Shown: positions 48,888 through 60,261 of the stretch, one piece after another
Numbering within the stretch: the stretch's first letter is position 1
Layout: every line of letters begins with the position of its first letter
From: Novispirillum itersonii subsp. itersonii ATCC 12639
Lineage (GTDB): Bacteria > Pseudomonadota > Alphaproteobacteria > Rhodospirillales > Rhodospirillaceae
DNA: 64,000 nucleotides
NCBI RefSeq assembly: GCF_000381985.1
Contig: NZ_KB907339.1
Span: 62,001-126,000 of the forward strand
Direction of reading: 5' to 3'
Position numbers and translations under genes: made by a program
Notes under the pieces: model-generated
The model's input: only the letters and a program-made list of their open reading frames with translations
The model's database searches: none
Told to the model about the DNA's origin: nothing

Positions 48888-50078
48888 TTATCCCAGCACC
48901 AGCCTGCGGGTGTGGCGGGCAATCATCAGCTCTTCATTGGTCGGGATTGCCCAGACCCCATAGTGGCTGTCGGCGGCGCTGACCTTCAGGGCGTGACTGT
49001 CGTTGGCAGCGGCATCCAGCCGCACCCCGGTCCAGCCCAGCAGATCACAGACCCGCTGACGGACGACGGCGGAGTGTTCGCCGATCCCGGCGGTAAACAC
49101 CAGAGCATCGACGCCGCCGATGGCGGTTGCCAGCGCCCCGACTTCCTTGGCAACGCGATAGATGAACAGATCGACCGCCTGCTTTGCCTCCGGGGCGTCA
49201 CTGTCCATCAACACCCGCATGTCATTGGACAGACCGCCGGAAACGCCAAGCAGGCCGGATTCCTTGTAGAACAGTTTTTCCAGTGCCTTGGCATCCAGAC
49301 CGTCCTGCTGCATCAGGTGCAGCACCACACCGACATCCAGCGACCCGCAGCGGGTGCCCATCATCAGGCCGTCGACAGCGGTGAACCCGATGGACGTATC
49401 CACCGACCGCCCTTCTTTGATGGCGCACATGCTGACACCGCTGCCCAGATGGGCAACGATCACCCGGCCCCGTGCCGCCTGCGGGTCCAGATCCTCCAGC
49501 CGGTGGGTAATGTACTCATACGACAGCCCGTGGAAGCCGTACCGCTTGATCCCGGCGTCATAGTACTTGCGCGGCAGGCCGAACATTTCAGCTTCCAGCC
49601 GTTTATGGGCATGGAAGGCGGTATCGAAACACACCACCTGCGGCAGATCAGGGTGCAGTTCAGCCAGGGCGGCAATCGGGGCCAGATTGTGCGGCTGGTG
49701 CAGCGGGGCCAGCGAGGTCAGGGCCCGCAGGTCATCAAGAACGGTCTTGTTCACCAGCACCGGCGCGGAATAACCGGACCCGCCATGCACCACCCGGTGC
49801 CCGGCGGCGCGCAGGGTGGCATCGCCCAGATGATCTTCGATCCAGTCAATCAGCCGCCCGAGCAGAGCCGACTGCTTCCCGACCTCCACCGCCGGCCACA
49901 GATCATCGGCGACCACGTTGCCAGCGGCATCTTTGGCGAAGAAATGGGGGGTGATCCCCACGCCCAGCCCTTCCAGCTGGCCGTTACAGACCAGACGCTG
50001 GTCGCTGTTATCGGTGATATAGACCGAAAACTTGATCGACGACGACCCGGCGTTGATTACGAGCAATCCGTCAGACAT
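48888..50078 (-). CDS. ackA: acetate (short-chain acyl) kinase
   Basis: Interconverts acetyl phosphate plus ADP with acetate plus ATP. The 396-residue product has the ASKHA start LLVINAGSSSIKFSVY, the second signature VVHGGSGYSAPVLVN, RYGFHGLSYEYI, the phosphate motif VIVAHLGSGVSMCAI, and FTAGIGEHSAVVRQRV. The start is three bases after the MaoC-phosphate acyltransferase gene, so they form one unit. The pair suggests acyl-CoA to acyl phosphate to acid with ATP gain; butyrate or propionate use cannot be excluded. Confidence 0.96.
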   Translation of the reverse strand: MSDGLLVINAGSSSIKFSVYITDNSDQRLVCNGQLEGLGVGITPHFFAKDAAGNVVADDLWPAVEVGKQSALLGRLIDWIEDHLGDATLRAAGHRVVHGGSGYSAPVLVNKTVLDDLRALTSLAPLHQPHNLAPIAALAELHPDLPQVVCFDTAFHAHKRLEAEMFGLPRKYYDAGIKRYGFHGLSYEYITHRLEDLDPQAARGRVIVAHLGSGVSMCAIKEGRSVDTSIGFTAVDGLMMGTRCGSLDVGVVLHLMQQDGLDAKALEKLFYKESGLLGVSGGLSNDMRVLMDSDAPEAKQAVDLFIYRVAKEVGALATAIGGVDALVFTAGIGEHSAVVRQRVCDLLGWTGVRLDAAANDSHALKVSAADSHYGVWAIPTNEELMIARHTRRLVLG

Positions 50079-50081
50079 GGG

Positions 50082-51506
50082 TTATTCCGCCCCTCCGCCG
50101 GTCATCAGCTTTTTCTTTCCGGTGCGGCGGGCCTGCGCGTACAGCGCTGCCACCGCGCAGGAGGCCAGACGGGCCTTCACAGTGTCGGCCCGGCTGGTCA
50201 GGATGATCGGCACCCGTGCCCCCAGCACGATCCCGGCGGCTTCGGCCTCGGCCAGATAGCACAGCTGCTTGGCCAGCATGTTTCCGGCTTCCAGATCCGG
50301 CACCAGCAGGATATCGGCATTGCCGGCCACCGGGCTGGTGATCTTCTTGATCCGTGCCGCTTCCGGCGAAATGGCATTGTCGAAGGCCAGCGGGCCGTCA
50401 AGGATGGCGCCTTTGATCTGGCCACGGTCGGCCATTTTGCACAGGGCGGCGGCCTCGATGGTTGAGGTGATCTTCGGGTAAACCGTTTCCACCGCTGACA
50501 GGATCGCCACCAGCGGGGTGGCCACCCCCATCACCTGCACCAGATCAATGGCGTTCTGGCAGATATCGACCTTGTCTTCCAGCGTCGGATAGATGTTGAT
50601 CGCGGCATCGGTGATGAACAGCGGCTTGGGATAGGTCGGGGTATCCATGATGTAGACATGGCTGATCCGCCGCCCGGTGCGCAGGCCGGTGTCGCGTTTG
50701 GCGACCTCGTGCATCATTTCGTCGGTGTGCAGGCTGCCCTTCATCAGCGCCTCGCACTCCCCGGTGCGGCACAGCGAAACCGACACCTCAGCCGAGCCGT
50801 GCGAATGCTCGGTATTGACGATGCGCAGGCCGGTCAGATCCTGCCCGAACTGTTCAGCGGTTTCGCGGATCTTGTCTTCCGGCCCCACCAGAACCGGGGT
50901 GATGATACCGTTGCGGTAGGCATCCAGGGCCCCGGTCAGCGAGATTTCGTCGCAGGGGTGGCACACCGCCACCGAGACCGGCGGCATCGACTGGACCTTG
51001 GTGATAATGTCTTCGTAGACATGCGAGCGGCGGCGCACTTTGGCTTCCGGCACAAAGGCCTCGGCAATGCGCACTTTCTCGGTCGGGGCCTCGACCACCG
51101 CCTGACCGTCAATCACGGTTTCGCCACGCTGGTTGATGGCAAGACAGGCCAGAGTGATGCTGCGGGTGGCATCTTCTTTGGCGGTGACGGTGATGGTCAG
51201 GGTCAGGGTGTCACCCAGTTCCACCGGGCGATGGAAGCTGAAGCTCTGGGTTTTATAGACGCTTCCGGGGCCGGGCAGCTCGTTGCCCAGCAGGGCGGAA
51301 AACAGGGAGCCGCCCCACATGCCATGCCCGCTGATCTTCTGGGATTTCAGCAGGCGGCTCGCCCATTCCTCATCCAGATGGGTCGGGTTGTAATCCGCCG
51401 ACAGGGCGGCGAACATCTCGGTATCTTCCTTGGTCAGGGTCCGCACCAGCGAGGCCTTGTCTCCGATCGAGATTTCGGCATAGGTCCGGTTTTCGATACT
51501 CTGCAT
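50082..51506 (-). CDS. MaoC-like hydratase / phosphate acyltransferase fusion protein
   Basis: A 474-residue bifunctional protein. The N-terminal domain (about 8-155) is a MaoC-type (R)-enoyl-CoA hydratase fold with DYNPTHLDEEWA and ISGHGMWGGSLFSALLG, where the Asp and His form the catalytic pair. The C-terminal domain (about 165-470) is a phosphate acetyl/butyryltransferase (VAVCHPCDEISLTGALDA, AILDGPLAFDNAIS, VPDLEAGNMLAKQL). This fusion is a known annotated type in proteobacteria. GGGGAG precedes the ATG at 51506. Together with ackA it could link (R)-hydroxyacyl-CoA or PHA metabolism to acyl phosphate; that link is inference. Confidence 0.93.
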   Translation of the reverse strand: MQSIENRTYAEISIGDKASLVRTLTKEDTEMFAALSADYNPTHLDEEWASRLLKSQKISGHGMWGGSLFSALLGNELPGPGSVYKTQSFSFHRPVELGDTLTLTITVTAKEDATRSITLACLAINQRGETVIDGQAVVEAPTEKVRIAEAFVPEAKVRRRSHVYEDIITKVQSMPPVSVAVCHPCDEISLTGALDAYRNGIITPVLVGPEDKIRETAEQFGQDLTGLRIVNTEHSHGSAEVSVSLCRTGECEALMKGSLHTDEMMHEVAKRDTGLRTGRRISHVYIMDTPTYPKPLFITDAAINIYPTLEDKVDICQNAIDLVQVMGVATPLVAILSAVETVYPKITSTIEAAALCKMADRGQIKGAILDGPLAFDNAISPEAARIKKITSPVAGNADILLVPDLEAGNMLAKQLCYLAEAEAAGIVLGARVPIILTSRADTVKARLASCAVAALYAQARRTGKKKLMTGGGAE

Positions 51507-51720: not shown

Positions 51721-51760
51721 CCTGAAACAATGCTGAATGGCCTGAAACAATGCTGAATGG
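51721..51760 (+). repeat. perfect 20-bp tandem duplication at the start of the hybrid kinase gene
   Basis: Bases 51721-51740 and 51741-51760 are identical (each begins CCTGAAACAA and ends GCTGAATGG). The second copy contains the likely start ATG at 51757. Twenty bases is not a multiple of three, so gain or loss of a copy would move upstream frames but leave the ATG itself. Confidence 0.9.
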
Positions 51761-53802
51761 GTTGTGAAATGAAACCGGCGGATGATGACATTCTGGTGTA
51801 TCAGCCCGAGGTCGATGAGGTTTCCGGGCCTGACGTCGGCCTGCCCTGGAAAGTGCTGGTGGTGGATGATGATGCCGAGATCCACCATGTGACCCGGATT
51901 GTGCTGGACGGTTTTGTTTTTCGCAACCGTGAATTGAAAATTCTTTCTGCCTTCTCTGCCCGTGGCGCGCGGGAGGTGCTGGCAGAACATCCCGATACCG
52001 CCGTCATGCTGCTGGATGTGGTGATGGAAACCGACGACGCCGGTCTGGCGCTGGTGTCTGAGGTGCGTGGCAAAATGGGGCTGGAAGCCCTGCGGATCGT
52101 CCTGCGGACCGGTCAGCCCGGACAGGCGCCGGAGCGCGACGTGATCCTGCGCTATGACATCAACGATTACAAAAGCAAGACAGAGCTGACCGCCCAGAAG
52201 CTGCTGACGGTGACGGTGGCAGCCCTGCGGGCGTATGAAGGGATTTCCAGCCTGCATGACAGCCAGCGGATTCTTGCCAGTGCCAATGCCGAGCTGGAGC
52301 GGCAGGTTGAAGCCCGGACCCGCGAACTGGCGGCGTCAGAGGCCCATTACCGCACGCTGTTGCAGGCAATCCCGGAAGGGGTGATCGCCATTGACGGCTG
52401 GGGGCTGATCCGCTCGGTCAGCCCATCGGCGGAACGGGTGTTCGGCCTGACCGCCGACAGCCTGCTCGGCAAGCCGTTTACCCTGCTGTTTGACAGTGCG
52501 ACCGCTACTGATCTGAAGCCCCTGTGGGGGCCTGCGGCCTGTGCCGGGGCGGAAGGGCTGGTCGGGAGCGGCCCGTCAGAGGTGCGGGGCCGCCATGCCG
52601 ATGGCCGCCTGTTCCCGATGGATCTGTCGATCAACCGGCTCGATCTTGGCGGAACCGTGCAATACGTCGCAACCGTGCGCGATGTCACGTCCCGCCATGA
52701 TTATCAGGAGGCCCTGCGGCAGGCCAAGCGCGATGCCGAGCAGGCGTCCCGCGCCAAGTCTGAGTTTCTGGCAGTGATGAGCCATGAAATCCGGACTCCC
52801 CTGAACGGCATTATCGGCATGGCGCAGCTGCTGTGCGACAGCCTGACGGAGGAAGAGCTGCAGGAGTTTTCCCGCATCATTCTGACGTCGGGGGAAAACC
52901 TGCTGAAAGTGCTGAACGATATCCTTGATTTCTCCAAACTGGAGTCCGGGCGGCTTAGCCTTGAGGACCACCCCTTTTCCGTCGCCCGGATGGTGGAGGA
53001 AACCGCTGCCCTGATGGAGGCCCCGGCCCGCGAAAAGGGAATTGAGCTGGCTGTTGTCCTGCAGGGGGATGTGGCGGTACAGGTCACCGGGGATGAGGGG
53101 CGGCTGCGGCAGGTGCTGCTGAATCTGCTGTCCAATGCCGTCAAGTTTACGGAAACCGGCGGTGTACGGGTGGAGATGCGCTGTCATGCGGCGGAAGACG
53201 GCCTGTCGGCAACCGTTGACCTGTCGGTCACGGATACCGGCATCGGTATCGCCCCGGAAGATCAGGCGCATCTGTTCCAGCATTTCATTCAGGCCAACAG
53301 CACAATTTCCCGCCGCTTTGGCGGTACCGGGCTGGGGTTGGCGATCTGCCAGAAAATCATTGCGGCGATGGGAGGCACCATCGAGGTCCGCAGTGCCCCC
53401 GGTCAGGGGGCGTGCTTTACGGTCCGGGTGGAATTGCCGGTTGCCGGTGCCGATCTGGCGGTCTTTGACGACGCGGCGCTGGATGTGCTGGGGATGGCGC
53501 TGGGGGCGGATGGCATCACGGATCTGATGCGGCTGTTCCTGAACGATGCCGACCGGTTGCTGCAGGCAATCGGTGAGTGCCTGAACGGTGAGGAGGGCGG
53601 CTTCGTGATGACCCCGGCGACCGAGCTGGCACGCACCGCCGACCGTCTGGGCTGCACGATGCTGGCGGCACAGGCCCGCCAGTTGCTGGTGGAGGAAGAC
53701 CCGGCCCGTCTGGCGGCCCATGCCAAGGGGTTGTGGCTGGTCATGGCCCGTACCCGGCAGGGGCTGATGGCGCGGTTCCCGGATCTGGAGGGGACTGGCT
53801 GA
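51757..53802 (+). CDS. hybrid histidine kinase: REC-PAS-HisKA-HATPase-degenerate HPt
   Basis: A 681-residue soluble signalling protein. Receiver first, about 30-150, with D87 (MLLDVVMETDDAG) and Lys in NDYKSKTEL; it is of the type also found before DUF3369. Then a PAS domain about 205-320, HisKA with H343 (VMSHEIRTPLNG), HATPase about 440-570 with GTGLGLAICQKI, and a C-terminal HPt-like bundle. At the HPt site the sequence is PATELARTADRLGC, with Thr where the phosphoryl-accepting His belongs, so that module looks inactive. Start ATG 51757 or 51769; neither has a strong ribosome site. It ends about 230 bases before the bufferin-type operon. Confidence 0.9.
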   Translation: MGCEMKPADDDILVYQPEVDEVSGPDVGLPWKVLVVDDDAEIHHVTRIVLDGFVFRNRELKILSAFSARGAREVLAEHPDTAVMLLDVVMETDDAGLALVSEVRGKMGLEALRIVLRTGQPGQAPERDVILRYDINDYKSKTELTAQKLLTVTVAALRAYEGISSLHDSQRILASANAELERQVEARTRELAASEAHYRTLLQAIPEGVIAIDGWGLIRSVSPSAERVFGLTADSLLGKPFTLLFDSATATDLKPLWGPAACAGAEGLVGSGPSEVRGRHADGRLFPMDLSINRLDLGGTVQYVATVRDVTSRHDYQEALRQAKRDAEQASRAKSEFLAVMSHEIRTPLNGIIGMAQLLCDSLTEEELQEFSRIILTSGENLLKVLNDILDFSKLESGRLSLEDHPFSVARMVEETAALMEAPAREKGIELAVVLQGDVAVQVTGDEGRLRQVLLNLLSNAVKFTETGGVRVEMRCHAAEDGLSATVDLSVTDTGIGIAPEDQAHLFQHFIQANSTISRRFGGTGLGLAICQKIIAAMGGTIEVRSAPGQGACFTVRVELPVAGADLAVFDDAALDVLGMALGADGITDLMRLFLNDADRLLQAIGECLNGEEGGFVMTPATELARTADRLGCTMLAAQARQLLVEEDPARLAAHAKGLWLVMARTRQGLMARFPDLEGTG

Positions 53803-53944
53803 TAACAGATGCGTGAGGAACCCCTGTCTCACGCGGCTGTGAATTCCTGAAATGATCCGGTGTTGATAGGGTTTGTTCAAGGCCGAAAGATAAGGATGAG
53901 GGCGGAATACAAGAGTTTCTGTCTTCTGGTTACGGTCTGATGAT

Positions 53945-53970: not shown

Positions 53971-54032
53971 AGTTCTGTCTTCACCGGAAAAATCTGCCCC
54001 GGCAGGTTTCATTTTTATGGGAGTTTTCAGCT

Positions 54033-54302
54033 ATGACTGTAACTGTTGCCCGCCCGCTGTCGCTGGCCGCTGCTGCCCTGTCTGTTGCCCTTGGGGCTGC
54101 CGCTGTCTCCGCCCCGGCTTCTGCCGCCGGGGATATGGAAAAGTGCTTCGGGATTGCCGCCGCTGGTAAGAATGACTGTGCGACGGCGACGTCGTCCTGC
54201 GCTGGAACCTCCAAGGTCGACCGTCAGGGGGATGCCTTTGTGGCGGTCCCGAAGGGCACCTGCGTCAAGCTTTCCGGTGGCAGTCTGGAACCGAAGAAGT
54301 AA
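54033..54302 (+). CDS. bufA: bufferin-type RiPP metallophore precursor (DUF2282)
   Basis: An 89-residue secreted precursor. The N-terminal 31-32 residues are a signal peptide ([20 protein letters not shown], cleaved near ASAA-GD). The mature part of about 57 residues has the DUF2282 pattern MEKCFG, GKNDCA, SSCAGTS, VPKGTC, with four Cys: C38, C49, C56, C77. In studied bufferins the two central Cys are oxidised to thiooxazole groups by the DUF692 enzyme and the peptide binds copper in the periplasm. Those facts come from the family; the four Cys and the neighbours are seen here. The gene is followed by a stem-loop and then by the maturase genes. Confidence 0.92.
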
Positions 54303-54330
54303 GTCCGGCGGCTGACGGCCTGCCAGTCTG

Positions 54331-54370
54331 GACCGGTCGGCGAAGGGGGGATGCCTTCGCCGGGCCGTCC
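54331..54370 (+). promoter_or_regulatory. stem-loop between bufA and bufB (possible attenuator)
   Basis: GGCGAAGG (54339-54346) pairs with CCTTCGCC (54354-54361) and the stem can extend outward with wobble and a bulge. A weak T-rich stretch follows further on. In RiPP operons such hairpins often protect the precursor message or partly stop transcription before maturase genes; here that is inference. Confidence 0.55.
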
Positions 54371-54509
54371 TGCTGTTTCCCCGGAATCGGGTTCTGGTTC
54401 CGGTTCTGGGGCCGTGAAGATGCTTTTCTTTGCAAACTGAGCATGCCTTCTGTGGGCTGGCACCGGGATGGCCGGGGCAATGCTCCTGCGTCGGGCGGAC
54501 CCTGCCATC

Positions 54510-55418
54510 ATGACACTGCATTTCAGCGGCAATGGCGAAACCTCTGGTTTACCGCGCCGGGCCGGTATTGGCCTGAAGCCGGAACACTATGCGGATATTC
54601 TGCAGGCTGGGCCGCAGGGGCTGCCCAATGTCGGCTGGTTTGAGGCGCATCCGGAAAATTATATGGGGGAAGGTGGCCCGCCACATCGCTGGCTGACAGC
54701 CATCTGCGGGCATTGGCCGCTGTCGCTGCATGCCGTCGGTCTGTCCCTTGGGTCTGCCGGTGGGGTTGATCCGGCGCATCTGGCCCGCCTGAAAGCCCTG
54801 ACCGACCGGTATCAGCCTGCGATGGTGTCGGATCATCTGGCCTGGAGTCAGGTTGACGGGCTGTATCTCAACGATTTGCTGCCGGTCCCGCTGACCGCCG
54901 TGGCGCGGGATGTGTTCGCCGCCAACATTGACCGGGTGCAGACCGTACTTCAGCGCCCTATTCTGATCGAAAATCCGTCACTGTATCTGCGCTGGGCCGG
55001 GGCGGAGATGACCGAGACTTCCCTGTTGCGGGATCTGGTCCGCCGGACCGGCTGCGGCCTGCTGCTGGACGTGAACAATGTGGCGGTCAGCTGCGGCAAT
55101 CTGGGGGATGACCCGGAAGCATATCTGCGGGCGTTTCCGCTGGACGCGGTGCAGGAAATCCATCTGGCCGGGCATGCGGTGCGGCAGGTGGAAGGCCAGA
55201 CCCTGCGGCTGGATGATCATGGTAGTCCGGTCCGCCCTGAGGTGTGGGCGCTCTATACCCTGACCCTGCGGCTGTTGCGGGACCGTGGTCTACCGCCACC
55301 GCCGACCCTGATTGAATGGGATACCGAGATCCCCACGCTGTCCTGCTGGCAGCAGGAGGCAGCGGAGGCTGACCGCCTGCTGGCCGCCGTATGGGATGAG
55401 GAGAGGGCCGATGTCTGA
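54510..55418 (+). CDS. bufB: DUF692 multinuclear non-haem iron oxidase (bufferin maturase)
   Basis: A 302-residue TIM-barrel enzyme of the MNIO family (formerly DUF692), related to MbnB of methanobactin synthesis. Metal-ligand motifs are all visible: GIGLKPEHY (H27), WFEAHPENY (E45, H47), LSLHAVGLSLGS (H74), VSDHLAW (D108, H109), LIENPS (E154), LLLDVNN (D187), EIHLAGH (H218, H222), DDHGSP (D236, H237) and a late IEWD. Expected role: oxidative conversion of precursor Cys. The start is taken as ATG 54510; ATGs at 54468 and 54480 are possible. Its last eight bases overlap the DUF2063 gene. Confidence 0.93.
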   Translation: MTLHFSGNGETSGLPRRAGIGLKPEHYADILQAGPQGLPNVGWFEAHPENYMGEGGPPHRWLTAICGHWPLSLHAVGLSLGSAGGVDPAHLARLKALTDRYQPAMVSDHLAWSQVDGLYLNDLLPVPLTAVARDVFAANIDRVQTVLQRPILIENPSLYLRWAGAEMTETSLLRDLVRRTGCGLLLDVNNVAVSCGNLGDDPEAYLRAFPLDAVQEIHLAGHAVRQVEGQTLRLDDHGSPVRPEVWALYTLTLRLLRDRGLPPPPTLIEWDTEIPTLSCWQQEAAEADRLLAAVWDEERADV

Positions 55419-56187
55419 CGCTGTTCAGGCCTTGCAGGACATTCAGCGCCGGTTTGCCCGCTGGGTGCTGGGGCAGGATGACGGGGCCGGTCTGGCCGGT
55501 CTGGTGGAAGGGCCGGGCCTGTGGGTTCACCGGAATACGGTCCGCCTGACTCTGAGCGATGCGCTGGGTGATCTCTACCCGGTCACCCGGCAGGTGGTGG
55601 GGGATGACTTTTTTGCGCAGGCGGCCAGACTTTTCCTGCGTGATCAGCCCCCCGTGGCCGCGACGCTGTTGCTGTGGGGCGGGCGGTTTCCTGCCTTTCT
55701 GGAAGAACTGCCCCCGGCGCAGGGGCTTCCCTATCTGCCGGATCTGGCCCGTCTGGAATGGCGGCGCCATCAGGCCCTGCACGGCCCGGAGGCCCCGGTT
55801 CTGACCGCCGGTGATCTGGCCGCCCTGCCGGTGGATCAGGCGGATGGGCTGGCCCTGACCCTGCACCCGACCGCCGGACTTGTGGTGTCTGACTGGCCGG
55901 TGCTGGATCTGTGGCAGGCCCATCAGGGGCCGGATGACTTTGACCGGCTCAGGTTCTCTCCCCGGCGGCAGGACATTGTGATTGTCCGCCCGCAGGCACA
56001 GGTGCTGTTACAGGCCCTGCCACCGGGCGGGGCGCGCTTTCTGGCGTGTCTTGATCAGGGGATCGGACCGGCCATTGCCCGGGCGGTGGAGGAGGAGCCG
56101 GGCTTTAATGCCGGGGCCCTGCTGGCTCAGGCCCTCAGCGCAGGTTGGTTCCGGCGTGATGCTGCGGTACAGAAGGAGCAGGTCTGA
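55411..56187 (+). CDS. bufC: DUF2063 protein, MNIO partner (BufC-like)
   Basis: A 258-residue protein. The N-terminal half is the DUF2063 domain: LQDIQRRFARWVLG, then VHRNTVRLTLSDALGDLYPVTRQVVGDDFFAQAARLFLRDQPP. The C-terminal half is a winged-helix-like RRE-type region ending GALLAQALSAGWFR. In the methanobactin and bufferin systems such partners bind the precursor and present it to the oxidase. GAGGAGAGGGCCG precedes the ATG, which lies inside the end of bufB. Its stop overlaps the next start by one base. Coupling of the three genes implies fixed protein ratios. Confidence 0.9.
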   Translation: MSDAVQALQDIQRRFARWVLGQDDGAGLAGLVEGPGLWVHRNTVRLTLSDALGDLYPVTRQVVGDDFFAQAARLFLRDQPPVAATLLLWGGRFPAFLEELPPAQGLPYLPDLARLEWRRHQALHGPEAPVLTAGDLAALPVDQADGLALTLHPTAGLVVSDWPVLDLWQAHQGPDDFDRLRFSPRRQDIVIVRPQAQVLLQALPPGGARFLACLDQGIGPAIARAVEEEPGFNAGALLAQALSAGWFRRDAAVQKEQV

Positions 56188-56621
56188 TGAAAGCGGTCTC
56201 AGAGGTTTTATCGTCATCCCTGTCCCGGATTCCTGATGCCGGATTGAGTCTGTTGGCCCGGCTGGGCATGGCGGGCATTTTCTGGCGCTCCGGCCAGACC
56301 AAGGTTGATGGTTGGTCCGTCACCGACGGCACGATTTATCTGTTCGCTGAAGAATATCGTCTGCCGCTGCTGCCGCCGGAGGTCGCGGCATGGCTGGCGG
56401 CAGGGGCCGAGCATCTGTTTCCCGTTCTGCTGGTGCTGGGGCTGCTGACCCGGCTGTCGGCGCTGGCGCTGGCGGCAATGACGCTGGTGATTCAGGTGTT
56501 TGTGTACCCCGGGCTGTGGCCGGATCATCTGACATGGCTGTCGGCGCTGCTGCTGATCGCGGTGAAGGGGGCGGGGCCGGTTGCGCTGGATGCGCTGCTG
56601 CCGTCACGCTTCCGGTTCTGA
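56187..56621 (+). CDS. DoxX-family membrane protein of the bufferin-type operon
   Basis: A 144-residue inner-membrane protein with four predicted helices (LSLLARLGMAGIFWRSGQTK, VAAWLAAGAEHLFPVLLVL, LTRLSALALAAMTLVIQVF, LTWLSALLLIAVKGAG). It matches the DoxX family, including the first-helix GIFWRSG and EHLFPVLLVLG segments. DoxX proteins often close DUF2282-DUF692-DUF2063 operons; a redox or quinone-linked role is suspected but unproved. The ATG overlaps the bufC stop (TGATGA). No terminator was found before the kinase gene 103 bases downstream. Confidence 0.9.
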   Translation: MKAVSEVLSSSLSRIPDAGLSLLARLGMAGIFWRSGQTKVDGWSVTDGTIYLFAEEYRLPLLPPEVAAWLAAGAEHLFPVLLVLGLLTRLSALALAAMTLVIQVFVYPGLWPDHLTWLSALLLIAVKGAGPVALDALLPSRFRF

Positions 56622-56724: not shown

Positions 56725-59700
56725 GTGCGTGATTACAGGTCTGTCTTGTCGATTTTTGCCATCGCGCTGCTGGTTCTGGCGGCGTGGACCTCTTGGTTTG
56801 AGTGGCAGAACCGTCAGAATATCCGGCAACTGGCCCGGGTTGAGCTGAACGCCCGCGCGGATTCCCTGACCGGCACATTTCTGTCGACCTTTCAGGTGGT
56901 GGAAAACACTCTGGTGGCGGTGGTCACCCGGCGGCAGGAGAATCTGCGCGCCGGGAATGGCATTGACCCGGATGTGCAGGCCACTGTCGAGGCGCTCGGT
57001 CAGTTCGTTGCGCAGGTCCGGGGGCTGGTCATCTTCGATCAGGCCGGCAATTCCGTTTACGATTCAACGGCATTTCCGGTTCCGCCGGTCAATGTCGCCG
57101 ACCGTGACTATTTCACCCATTTCTCCCGCAGTGATCATGGCAATGGCCGCGATACCTTCCTCGGGACCCCGGTGGTCGGGCGGACCAGCGGGACGTGGTT
57201 CCTGAGTATGAGCCGCGAGGTGGTGAATGCCGGTGGCCGTTTTTCCGGGGTGGCGCTGGGGGTGATTGATGTCGGGTTTCTCCAGCGCCTGCTGCGGGAA
57301 TCCCGCCGACCGGAAGATGCCGCACTGGCGCTGGTGACGCCGGACAATGTGATCATTGCGGCTTTTGTCCCCGGTGATGATACCTCGCTGACCGGCAAGC
57401 GCCTTGAGGAAACCCGTGTTTTCGGCGATGCGGCCCTGCGGTTTGCCAATGCACCGTCACCGTATGGGGTCTTTGATGGTGACGATACGCTGGTCGCTGT
57501 GTCTCCGGTATCGGGGATGCCGGTGCGGGTGGTGATGATGCGCACCTGGGACCGTGCGGACAGCCAGTGGCATGCCTCCCTGTCCCGGCAGCTGTTCCTG
57601 ATGGCCGGGACCCTGATCGTCCTGTTTCTGGTGTGGGCACCGGTGTCGCGGGTGATCCGTGACCGCGACCGCCTGTTTACCCTGTCGCCGGATCCGGTGT
57701 GCGTGCTGGAGGCCGATGGCCGGTTCCTGTCAGTCAATCCGGCGTGGGAATCCGCCCTGAAGCTGCCTCGTGCCGAGATACTCGGTCAGTCGGTGCTGGA
57801 TTTCGTCCACAGCGAAGACCGCAGCCGTCTGGCTGATATTCTGTTGCGGCTGTCCGTCGGCGGGCGGGTGGAAGAATTTACCCTGTGCTTCCGTGATCAC
57901 AGCAACGGGCAGATTTATCTGTCGATGGTGGCGGTGGCGGAAAACAGCCGGGTCTTTGCGATTGCCCGGAATGTCACCCAGCGCCTGCTGTCGGAAGAGG
58001 CGCTCCGCCGCAGCGAGCAGCGGTTCCGCGATGTGGCGGAAGCCTCCGGTGAGTTCATCTGGGAAACCGATGGCTCCGGCACGTTGGTCTTTGTGACGGA
58101 ACGGGCGCGGGCCGCCCTTGGTGTGGCGGGGTCGGAACTGATGGGACGACCACTGGCCGACCTGATCGGCGAGAATGACCGCCCCCGGGTGGCCGCGGCA
58201 CTGCGGCGTTACAGCCCGTTTCATTATGAGGTGGAAACCCGGCGCGCCAACGGGGGGCGGGTGATCCTGCGCCTGTCCGGGGTGCCGGTGGTGGATGGCA
58301 GTGACCGGCTGACCGGCTTTCGCGGTGCGGCGCTGGATGTGACGGAACGGCGACAGGCCCGGCAGGCCCTTCTGGAAAGCGAGGCCCGGTTCCGCAGCAT
58401 CGTCAACACCGTGATCGACGGTATTCTGACCGTTGACGAATATGGGATCATAGAATCGGTCAATCCGGCGATTGAGCGGATGTTTGAATACTCCGCCCGG
58501 GAAATGGTCGGCCGGGCCGTCTCCATGCTGTTTGCCGGGGATGCGGCCTTGCCGCATCCGGATTTTATGGCGCTCTACAGCCACTCGGGGGAGGAAGGGG
58601 TGCCGGGGAATGGCCGCGAAATCCTCGCCCGGCGGAAATCGGGGCTGGAATTTCCGCTGGAGCTGGGCGTCAGCGAGGTCTGGTTCGGCGGCAAGCGGCT
58701 GTTCATCGGCGTCTGCCGTGATATTTCCGAGCGCAAGCGAATTGACCGTCTGAAAGATGAATTCGTTTCAACCGTCAGCCACGAACTGCGGACCCCGCTG
58801 ACCTCTATCCGCGGGGCGCTGGGCCTGATTAACGGCGGTGCGGTGGGCGAGCTGCCGCCGAAAGCCCGTAATCTTGTCGGTATCGCCTATTCAAACAGCG
58901 AACGCCTGATCACGCTGGTCAATGATATCCTCGATATGCAGAAGATCGAGTCCGGCCGGATGGTCTATGACATGCGCCCGCTTGACCTCAGTGCGCTGTT
59001 GCGGCGGGCGGTGACGGAGATCAATGCCTTTGCCGGGCAATACGGTGTACGCGTTACGCTGACCGTCCCCGAAGACAACGGTGATACGGCGGTGATGGTT
59101 TCCGGTGATGCCGACCGTCTGGTGCAGGTGTCCATTAATCTGCTGTCCAACGCCATCAAGTTCTCGCCGGAAGGGGGGGAAGTGACCGTGGCGCTGCAGA
59201 CCCGGGGGCGGATGGCAGAGGTGCTGATCACCGATCAGGGGCCGGGCATTCCGGAGGAGTTTCAGCCTCAGATTTTCCAGAAGTTCTCGCAGGCGGATGC
59301 TACGGATACCCGTGCCAAGGGCGGGACCGGGCTTGGTCTGTCGATCGCCAAGGCGATTGTCGATCATCATCACGGCACGATTTCGTTTGAGAGCGTTGCC
59401 GGGCAGGGCACCACGTTTGTTCTGGCCCTGCCGATGACCGCCCCGGCTGTGGAGGTGGAGCCTGCACCGCTTCCCCCGCCGTTGTCGCAGTCTTTGCTGA
59501 TCGTTGAGGATGATCCGGTGATCTCTGACCTGCTGACAGAATATCTGGGGCAGGACGGCTACCGGGTTTCTGTCGCCTCAACGGTGGCCGAGGCCCGGAC
59601 CATGCTGGGGCAGACGCACTTTGACGGCATCACGCTTGATCTGATGCTGCCTGATGGCGACGGCCTGACGCTGGTGGATGAAATGCGCCGTCAGGGACGT

Positions 59701-60261
59701 CTGGGGGCGGTGCCGGTGGTGGTGGTGTCAGCGATTGCCGATGAACGGCGGGTGCTGGGCGAGGCGCTGGGGATCCATGACTGGGTCCGTAAGCCGATTG
59801 ATCCGAGTCTGCTGCGGGAGTCTGTCCGTCGGGCGATTCCGGCGGGAAGCCGGGCCAGAGCCCTGTATGTCGAGGATGACAGTGATCTGCGCAGTACCCT
59901 GCAGGAGGTTTTGTCCGAGCAGGTTGACCTGATCGGTGCCTCGACGGTGCAGGAGGCCCGGCGGTATCTGACCCGGGGCGATGCCTTTGATCTGGTGCTG
60001 CTTGATCTGCATCTGCCTGACGGGCGTGGCGAGGACCTTTTCCCCGATATCCGGGCGCACCCGTCGCATCCGGCGGTGGTGATCCTGTCCGCTTTGCCCG
60101 GCAGCCCGCCGGTTGACACCGTGGTATCGGCGGCATTGGTCAAGAGTATGGTCAGTAACGAAGAACTGGTTGAAACGGTGCGGACCCTGATCCGCGGACG
60201 CCGCGATCACTCTGCCGCCAGTCCGGCGGCGGACGGCGAAGAGGGGAGTGAAACGGTATGA
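56725..60261 (+). CDS. dCACHE-domain hybrid histidine kinase with two receivers
   Basis: An 1178-residue membrane sensor. Helix 8-27; periplasmic double-CACHE domain about 35-285 (ADRDYFTHFSRS, GTPVVGRTSGTWFLSMSREV); helix about 292-312; three PAS domains about 320-430, 435-550 and 560-675; HisKA with H686 (TVSHELRTPLTS); HATPase with GTGLGLSIAKAI; receiver 1 with D972 (LDLMLPDGDG); receiver 2 with D1094 (LDLHLPDGRG). Start is GTG at 56725 with a weak ribosome site. Its stop overlaps the single-receiver gene (ATGA). Position 103 bases after the DoxX gene, on the same strand without a terminator, allows co-transcription with the bufferin-type genes. The CACHE ligand is unknown. Confidence 0.92.
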   Translation: MRDYRSVLSIFAIALLVLAAWTSWFEWQNRQNIRQLARVELNARADSLTGTFLSTFQVVENTLVAVVTRRQENLRAGNGIDPDVQATVEALGQFVAQVRGLVIFDQAGNSVYDSTAFPVPPVNVADRDYFTHFSRSDHGNGRDTFLGTPVVGRTSGTWFLSMSREVVNAGGRFSGVALGVIDVGFLQRLLRESRRPEDAALALVTPDNVIIAAFVPGDDTSLTGKRLEETRVFGDAALRFANAPSPYGVFDGDDTLVAVSPVSGMPVRVVMMRTWDRADSQWHASLSRQLFLMAGTLIVLFLVWAPVSRVIRDRDRLFTLSPDPVCVLEADGRFLSVNPAWESALKLPRAEILGQSVLDFVHSEDRSRLADILLRLSVGGRVEEFTLCFRDHSNGQIYLSMVAVAENSRVFAIARNVTQRLLSEEALRRSEQRFRDVAEASGEFIWETDGSGTLVFVTERARAALGVAGSELMGRPLADLIGENDRPRVAAALRRYSPFHYEVETRRANGGRVILRLSGVPVVDGSDRLTGFRGAALDVTERRQARQALLESEARFRSIVNTVIDGILTVDEYGIIESVNPAIERMFEYSAREMVGRAVSMLFAGDAALPHPDFMALYSHSGEEGVPGNGREILARRKSGLEFPLELGVSEVWFGGKRLFIGVCRDISERKRIDRLKDEFVSTVSHELRTPLTSIRGALGLINGGAVGELPPKARNLVGIAYSNSERLITLVNDILDMQKIESGRMVYDMRPLDLSALLRRAVTEINAFAGQYGVRVTLTVPEDNGDTAVMVSGDADRLVQVSINLLSNAIKFSPEGGEVTVALQTRGRMAEVLITDQGPGIPEEFQPQIFQKFSQADATDTRAKGGTGLGLSIAKAIVDHHHGTISFESVAGQGTTFVLALPMTAPAVEVEPAPLPPPLSQSLLIVEDDPVISDLLTEYLGQDGYRVSVASTVAEARTMLGQTHFDGITLDLMLPDGDGLTLVDEMRRQGRLGAVPVVVVSAIADERRVLGEALGIHDWVRKPIDPSLLRESVRRAIPAGSRARALYVEDDSDLRSTLQEVLSEQVDLIGASTVQEARRYLTRGDAFDLVLLDLHLPDGRGEDLFPDIRAHPSHPAVVILSALPGSPPVDTVVSAALVKSMVSNEELVETVRTLIRGRRDHSAASPAADGEEGSETV

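Follow-up and report, generated by a model that had tools for sequence, protein, structure and literature searches.

A Four-Gene Operon Identified, with High Probability, as a Core Bufferin 1 (Buf1) Gene Cluster

Gene Organization of the Operon

Four genes are found on the forward strand between positions 54033 and 56621 of the window (the whole 64,000-nucleotide stretch of DNA that was analyzed). These genes, the RNA hairpin found among them, and the two flanking genes are listed below.

51757-53802, sensor kinase, flanking the operon
54033..54302, + strand, bufA1 (bufA), DUF2282 bufferin-1 precursor, 89 aa, Pfam PF10048 (E = 1.7e-24)
54339..54365, + strand, RNA hairpin between bufA and bufB, stem GGCGAAGG/CCTTCGCC inside a longer helix
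54468..55418, + strand, bufB, MNIO (DUF692) bufferin maturase, 316 aa, Pfam MbnB_TglH_ChrH (3.2e-93)
55411..56187, + strand, bufC, DUF2063/PME-type 1 partner, 258 aa from the ATG, Pfam PF09836 (1e-18)
56187..56621, + strand, doxX, small membrane protein of the bufferin cluster, 144 aa, Pfam PF07681 (7.7e-20)
56725-60261, large PAS/kinase/receiver protein, flanking the operon

The Pfam matches of all four proteins exceed the curated cut-offs, and together with the positions of the open reading frames they bear out the four-gene operon proposed in an earlier note on this DNA. The last three genes overlap, as that note had stated; bufB and bufC share 8 bases (55411-55418), and bufC and doxX share 1 base (56187). 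The overlaps are confined to these three genes, and bufA and bufB are separated by approximately 165 bases.

Among the named organisms in the collection, Novispirillum itersonii is the closest; its operon (L032) shares the gene content and gene order of the window, with amino acid identities of 89%, 82%, 69%, and 81% for BufA, BufB, BufC, and DoxX, respectively. Most of the nucleotide differences that separate the window from L032 are at third codon positions, and this applies to each of the four genes. The differences at codon positions 1, 2, and 3 number 7, 5, and 43 for bufA; 41, 23, and 108 for bufB; 55, 44, and 118 for bufC; and 21, 13, and 56 for doxX. This bias indicates that each of the four is a genuine gene maintained by purifying selection.

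The order precursor-MNIO-partner, followed by DoxX where the flank reaches that far, is the same in most of the approximately 50 loci compared from relatives. The bufC gene is 3′ of bufB in nearly all of them, and doxX is placed likewise in L032 and many others. The genome (4.29 Mb) contains one DUF2282 gene and one MNIO gene, and both are also present in the one other genome of the genus in the collection. DUF2282 is carried by 27 of the 61 related genomes. Plasmid records with relatives of BufB number 353, all of them below 60% identity, and added no further insight.

Precursor Peptide BufA1

BufA1 matches PF10048 with a score of 85.9 bits against a cut-off of 22.4. A Sec-type signal can be read directly from the sequence as an N-terminal arginine, a hydrophobic stretch rich in Ala, Leu, and Val, and an A-S-A-A cleavage site. 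Cleavage is predicted near residue 31-32, which would release a mature form of about 57-58 residues. The secreted 57-residue peptide with four cysteines that had been described earlier corresponds to this predicted mature form; the open reading frame itself encodes 89 residues.

The four cysteines of BufA1 appear in the contexts EKCFG, NDCAT, SSCAG, and GTCVK. The cysteines and their flanking residues are conserved in an alignment of BufA1 with 56 relatives, and the flanks of BufA1 rank as the 14th most typical among the 57 sequences. L004 and L032 have an almost identical central core of the peptide.

The NCBIfam model for BufA2 was also compared with BufA1 and returned 37 bits, below its cut-off of 60. 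A Buf2 assignment was ruled out because this score is below the cut-off and because BufA1 has four cysteines instead of six; BufA1 is assigned to Buf1.

A second DUF2282-like precursor (2571-2855) is located next to the MNIO gene in two Acidithiobacillus clusters (L045 and L046) and aligns without the third cysteine. A four-cysteine precursor followed by DoxX is found further upstream in both clusters.

BufB and the Partner Proteins

BufB passes the NCBIfam MNIO_BufB model with 339 bits against a cut-off of 310 and matches the solved di-iron MNIO structure 3BWW at 9.6e-31. Among 51 BufB sequences, 46 positions are at least 95% conserved, and residues H61, H88, H123, E168, D201, N203, N204, H232, D249, H251, and E283 are each conserved in 50 or 51 of the 51. 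The activity of HvfB requires N175, D242, and H244 (PMC13419390); the counterparts of the Asn and the D-x-H pair in BufB, matched by motif, are N203/N204 and D249-x-H251. The MNIO oxidase with a full set of ligand motifs proposed earlier is thus confirmed at the level of the family cut-off and of the conserved His, Asp, Glu, and Asn residues. The true start of bufB may be located further downstream, for example at the ATG at 54510.

The presence of a DUF2063 partner and a DoxX protein, also proposed earlier, is supported by scores of 67.8 bits for BufC (PF09836, cut-off 27.2) and 71.8 bits for DoxX (PF07681, cut-off 23.6). The matches of these two proteins to the NCBIfam partner and DoxX models (the HvfC and HvfX families) fall under the cut-offs.

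Intergenic Hairpin and Regulation

The hairpin between bufA and bufB is strong, with a z of -3.06 for a 46-base fold. The hairpin is kept in L032 with one A-U to G-U change, within a shorter bufA-bufB spacer, and has a z there of only -1.52. No known RNA family was matched. A dispersed repeat was ruled out; the genome contains a single exact copy, and matches with at most 2 mismatches number 20 versus 46 in the backward control. The longer precursor-MNIO spacers of L012, L043, L045, and L051 also seem, by eye, to hold hairpins.

The genome yielded no NrsF anti-sigma gene, and neither a sigma factor gene nor an NrsF gene is present among the neighbors tested; control of the sigma-factor/NrsF type is therefore probably absent. 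Such control is an optional feature that is reported for some Buf1 clusters, and its absence therefore does not count against membership in Buf1. The neighbors tested also contain no recognizable metal-responsive regulator. No sigma-70-type promoter was found for the operon, and the promoter region is diverged and poorly conserved relative to the sister species L032. The one terminator-like match, a hairpin with a T-rich tail immediately ahead of bufA (53990-54009), was considered and set aside; it is no more than chance would give and has no evident counterpart in L032.

The bufA-bufB hairpin may allow more precursor than enzyme to be made, and one guess is that it acts as an attenuator or as a stabilizer of the 3′ end. 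A tentative possibility, somewhat less probable than an even chance, is that the cluster is controlled by something other than a sigma factor and NrsF, that the hairpin keeps the precursor in large excess over the enzyme, and that similar hairpins recur in other lineages.

Identification and Proposed Function

The locus at 54033-56621 (+ strand) is very probably the core gene cluster that has been published for Buf1 (bufferin 1), a captophorin. This identification is made because all four proteins match their families and because the gene order, the catalytic-type residues, and the four-cysteine pattern agree with it. Counting against it are the sub-threshold HvfC and HvfX matches, the lack of an NrsF gene in the genome and of a recognizable metal-responsive regulator among the neighbors tested, and the failure to find a sigma-70-type promoter. 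The operon is complete and ordinary, probably functional, and of a kind that is already known and widespread.

A close counterpart by features is the Buf1 cluster characterized in Caulobacter vibrioides (PMC12452194, PMC13097082), which likewise has a four-cysteine DUF2282 precursor with a Sec signal, an MNIO, a DUF2063 partner, and a DoxX protein. The differences are that C. vibrioides has an NrsF anti-sigma gene and that in the window bufA and bufB are set about 165 bases apart with a hairpin between them. The GIG operons of Cupriavidus metallidurans and Legionella pneumophila are alike by composition, with the identical four families, and have a measured response to Au and Cu (PMC5413113).

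The following pathway is proposed by analogy with characterized relatives. BufA1 would carry a Sec signal that also serves as the leader, a dual role in bufferin synthesis that is cited in PMC13419390. BufC, as an RRE-type partner, would present BufA1 to the di-iron enzyme BufB, which would oxidize the two central cysteines (NDC and SSC) to 5-thiooxazoles. The first and last cysteines would be joined by a disulfide. In Buf1 the modifications are on the two central cysteines and a disulfide links the outer pair (PMC12452194), and the PME1-type MNIO clusters that have been characterized to date introduce 5-thiooxazoles and in general bind Cu (PMC13097082). The peptide would then be exported to the periplasm with removal of the signal, and the mature form would chelate surplus copper and possibly further soft metals. 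DoxX may have an accessory membrane or redox role. The product is most likely a peptide with two altered cysteines that soaks up excess copper. The family matches, gene order, conserved residues, and Buf1 literature agree with the modified periplasmic metal-binding peptide that the earlier note had anticipated; the novelty claimed for the product was not upheld.

That claim was based on a precursor thought to be unusual around its cysteines, from which BufB would make a distinct product. The chemistry of MNIO enzymes varies, and activity can be affected by flanking residues (PMC13097082). However, the family-typical flanks found in the 56-relative alignment speak against an unusual cysteine context, and BufB is above the bufferin maturase cut-off. 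A difference in the flanks would not have been remarkable in any case, because the cysteine surroundings of DUF2282 precursors are generally little conserved (PMC13097082). A distinct product is thus very unlikely. An operon that is decaying or silent would be consistent with the lack of a promoter fitting the sigma-70 consensus, but it is extremely unlikely given that every frame is open, that the differences from the sister species favor third positions, and that the two genomes of the genus in the collection both retain the operon.

A genuine bufferin operon might instead respond mainly to a metal or stress other than copper, such as gold, mercury, zinc, or oxidative/sulfur stress; the main clue to this would be DoxX. 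The related GIG operons are gold-responsive (PMC5413113), and MerC fusions and DoxX point to other stresses (PMC12452194). Characterized bufferins, however, work under copper stress (PMC12452194), and neither a metal-specific gene nor another pointer to a different metal was found among the neighbors tested. This assignment is considered unlikely, and the copper-binding Buf1 product is preferred. As an intact single-copy operon of the Novispirillum group, the cluster joins a class for which descriptions already cover thousands of bacteria; the single copy offers a clean genetic system for bufferin function, and the known picture is unchanged.

Flanking Regions

A conserved stretch that can form a hairpin (GCGTGAGG...CTCACGC) follows the upstream kinase gene at 53803-53850 and is common to N. 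itersonii; it is probably the terminator of that gene. Further upstream, positions 50082-51506 (- strand) encode a fusion of a MaoC-like domain with a phosphate acetyl/butyryl transferase and adjoin an acetate kinase gene (48888-50078).
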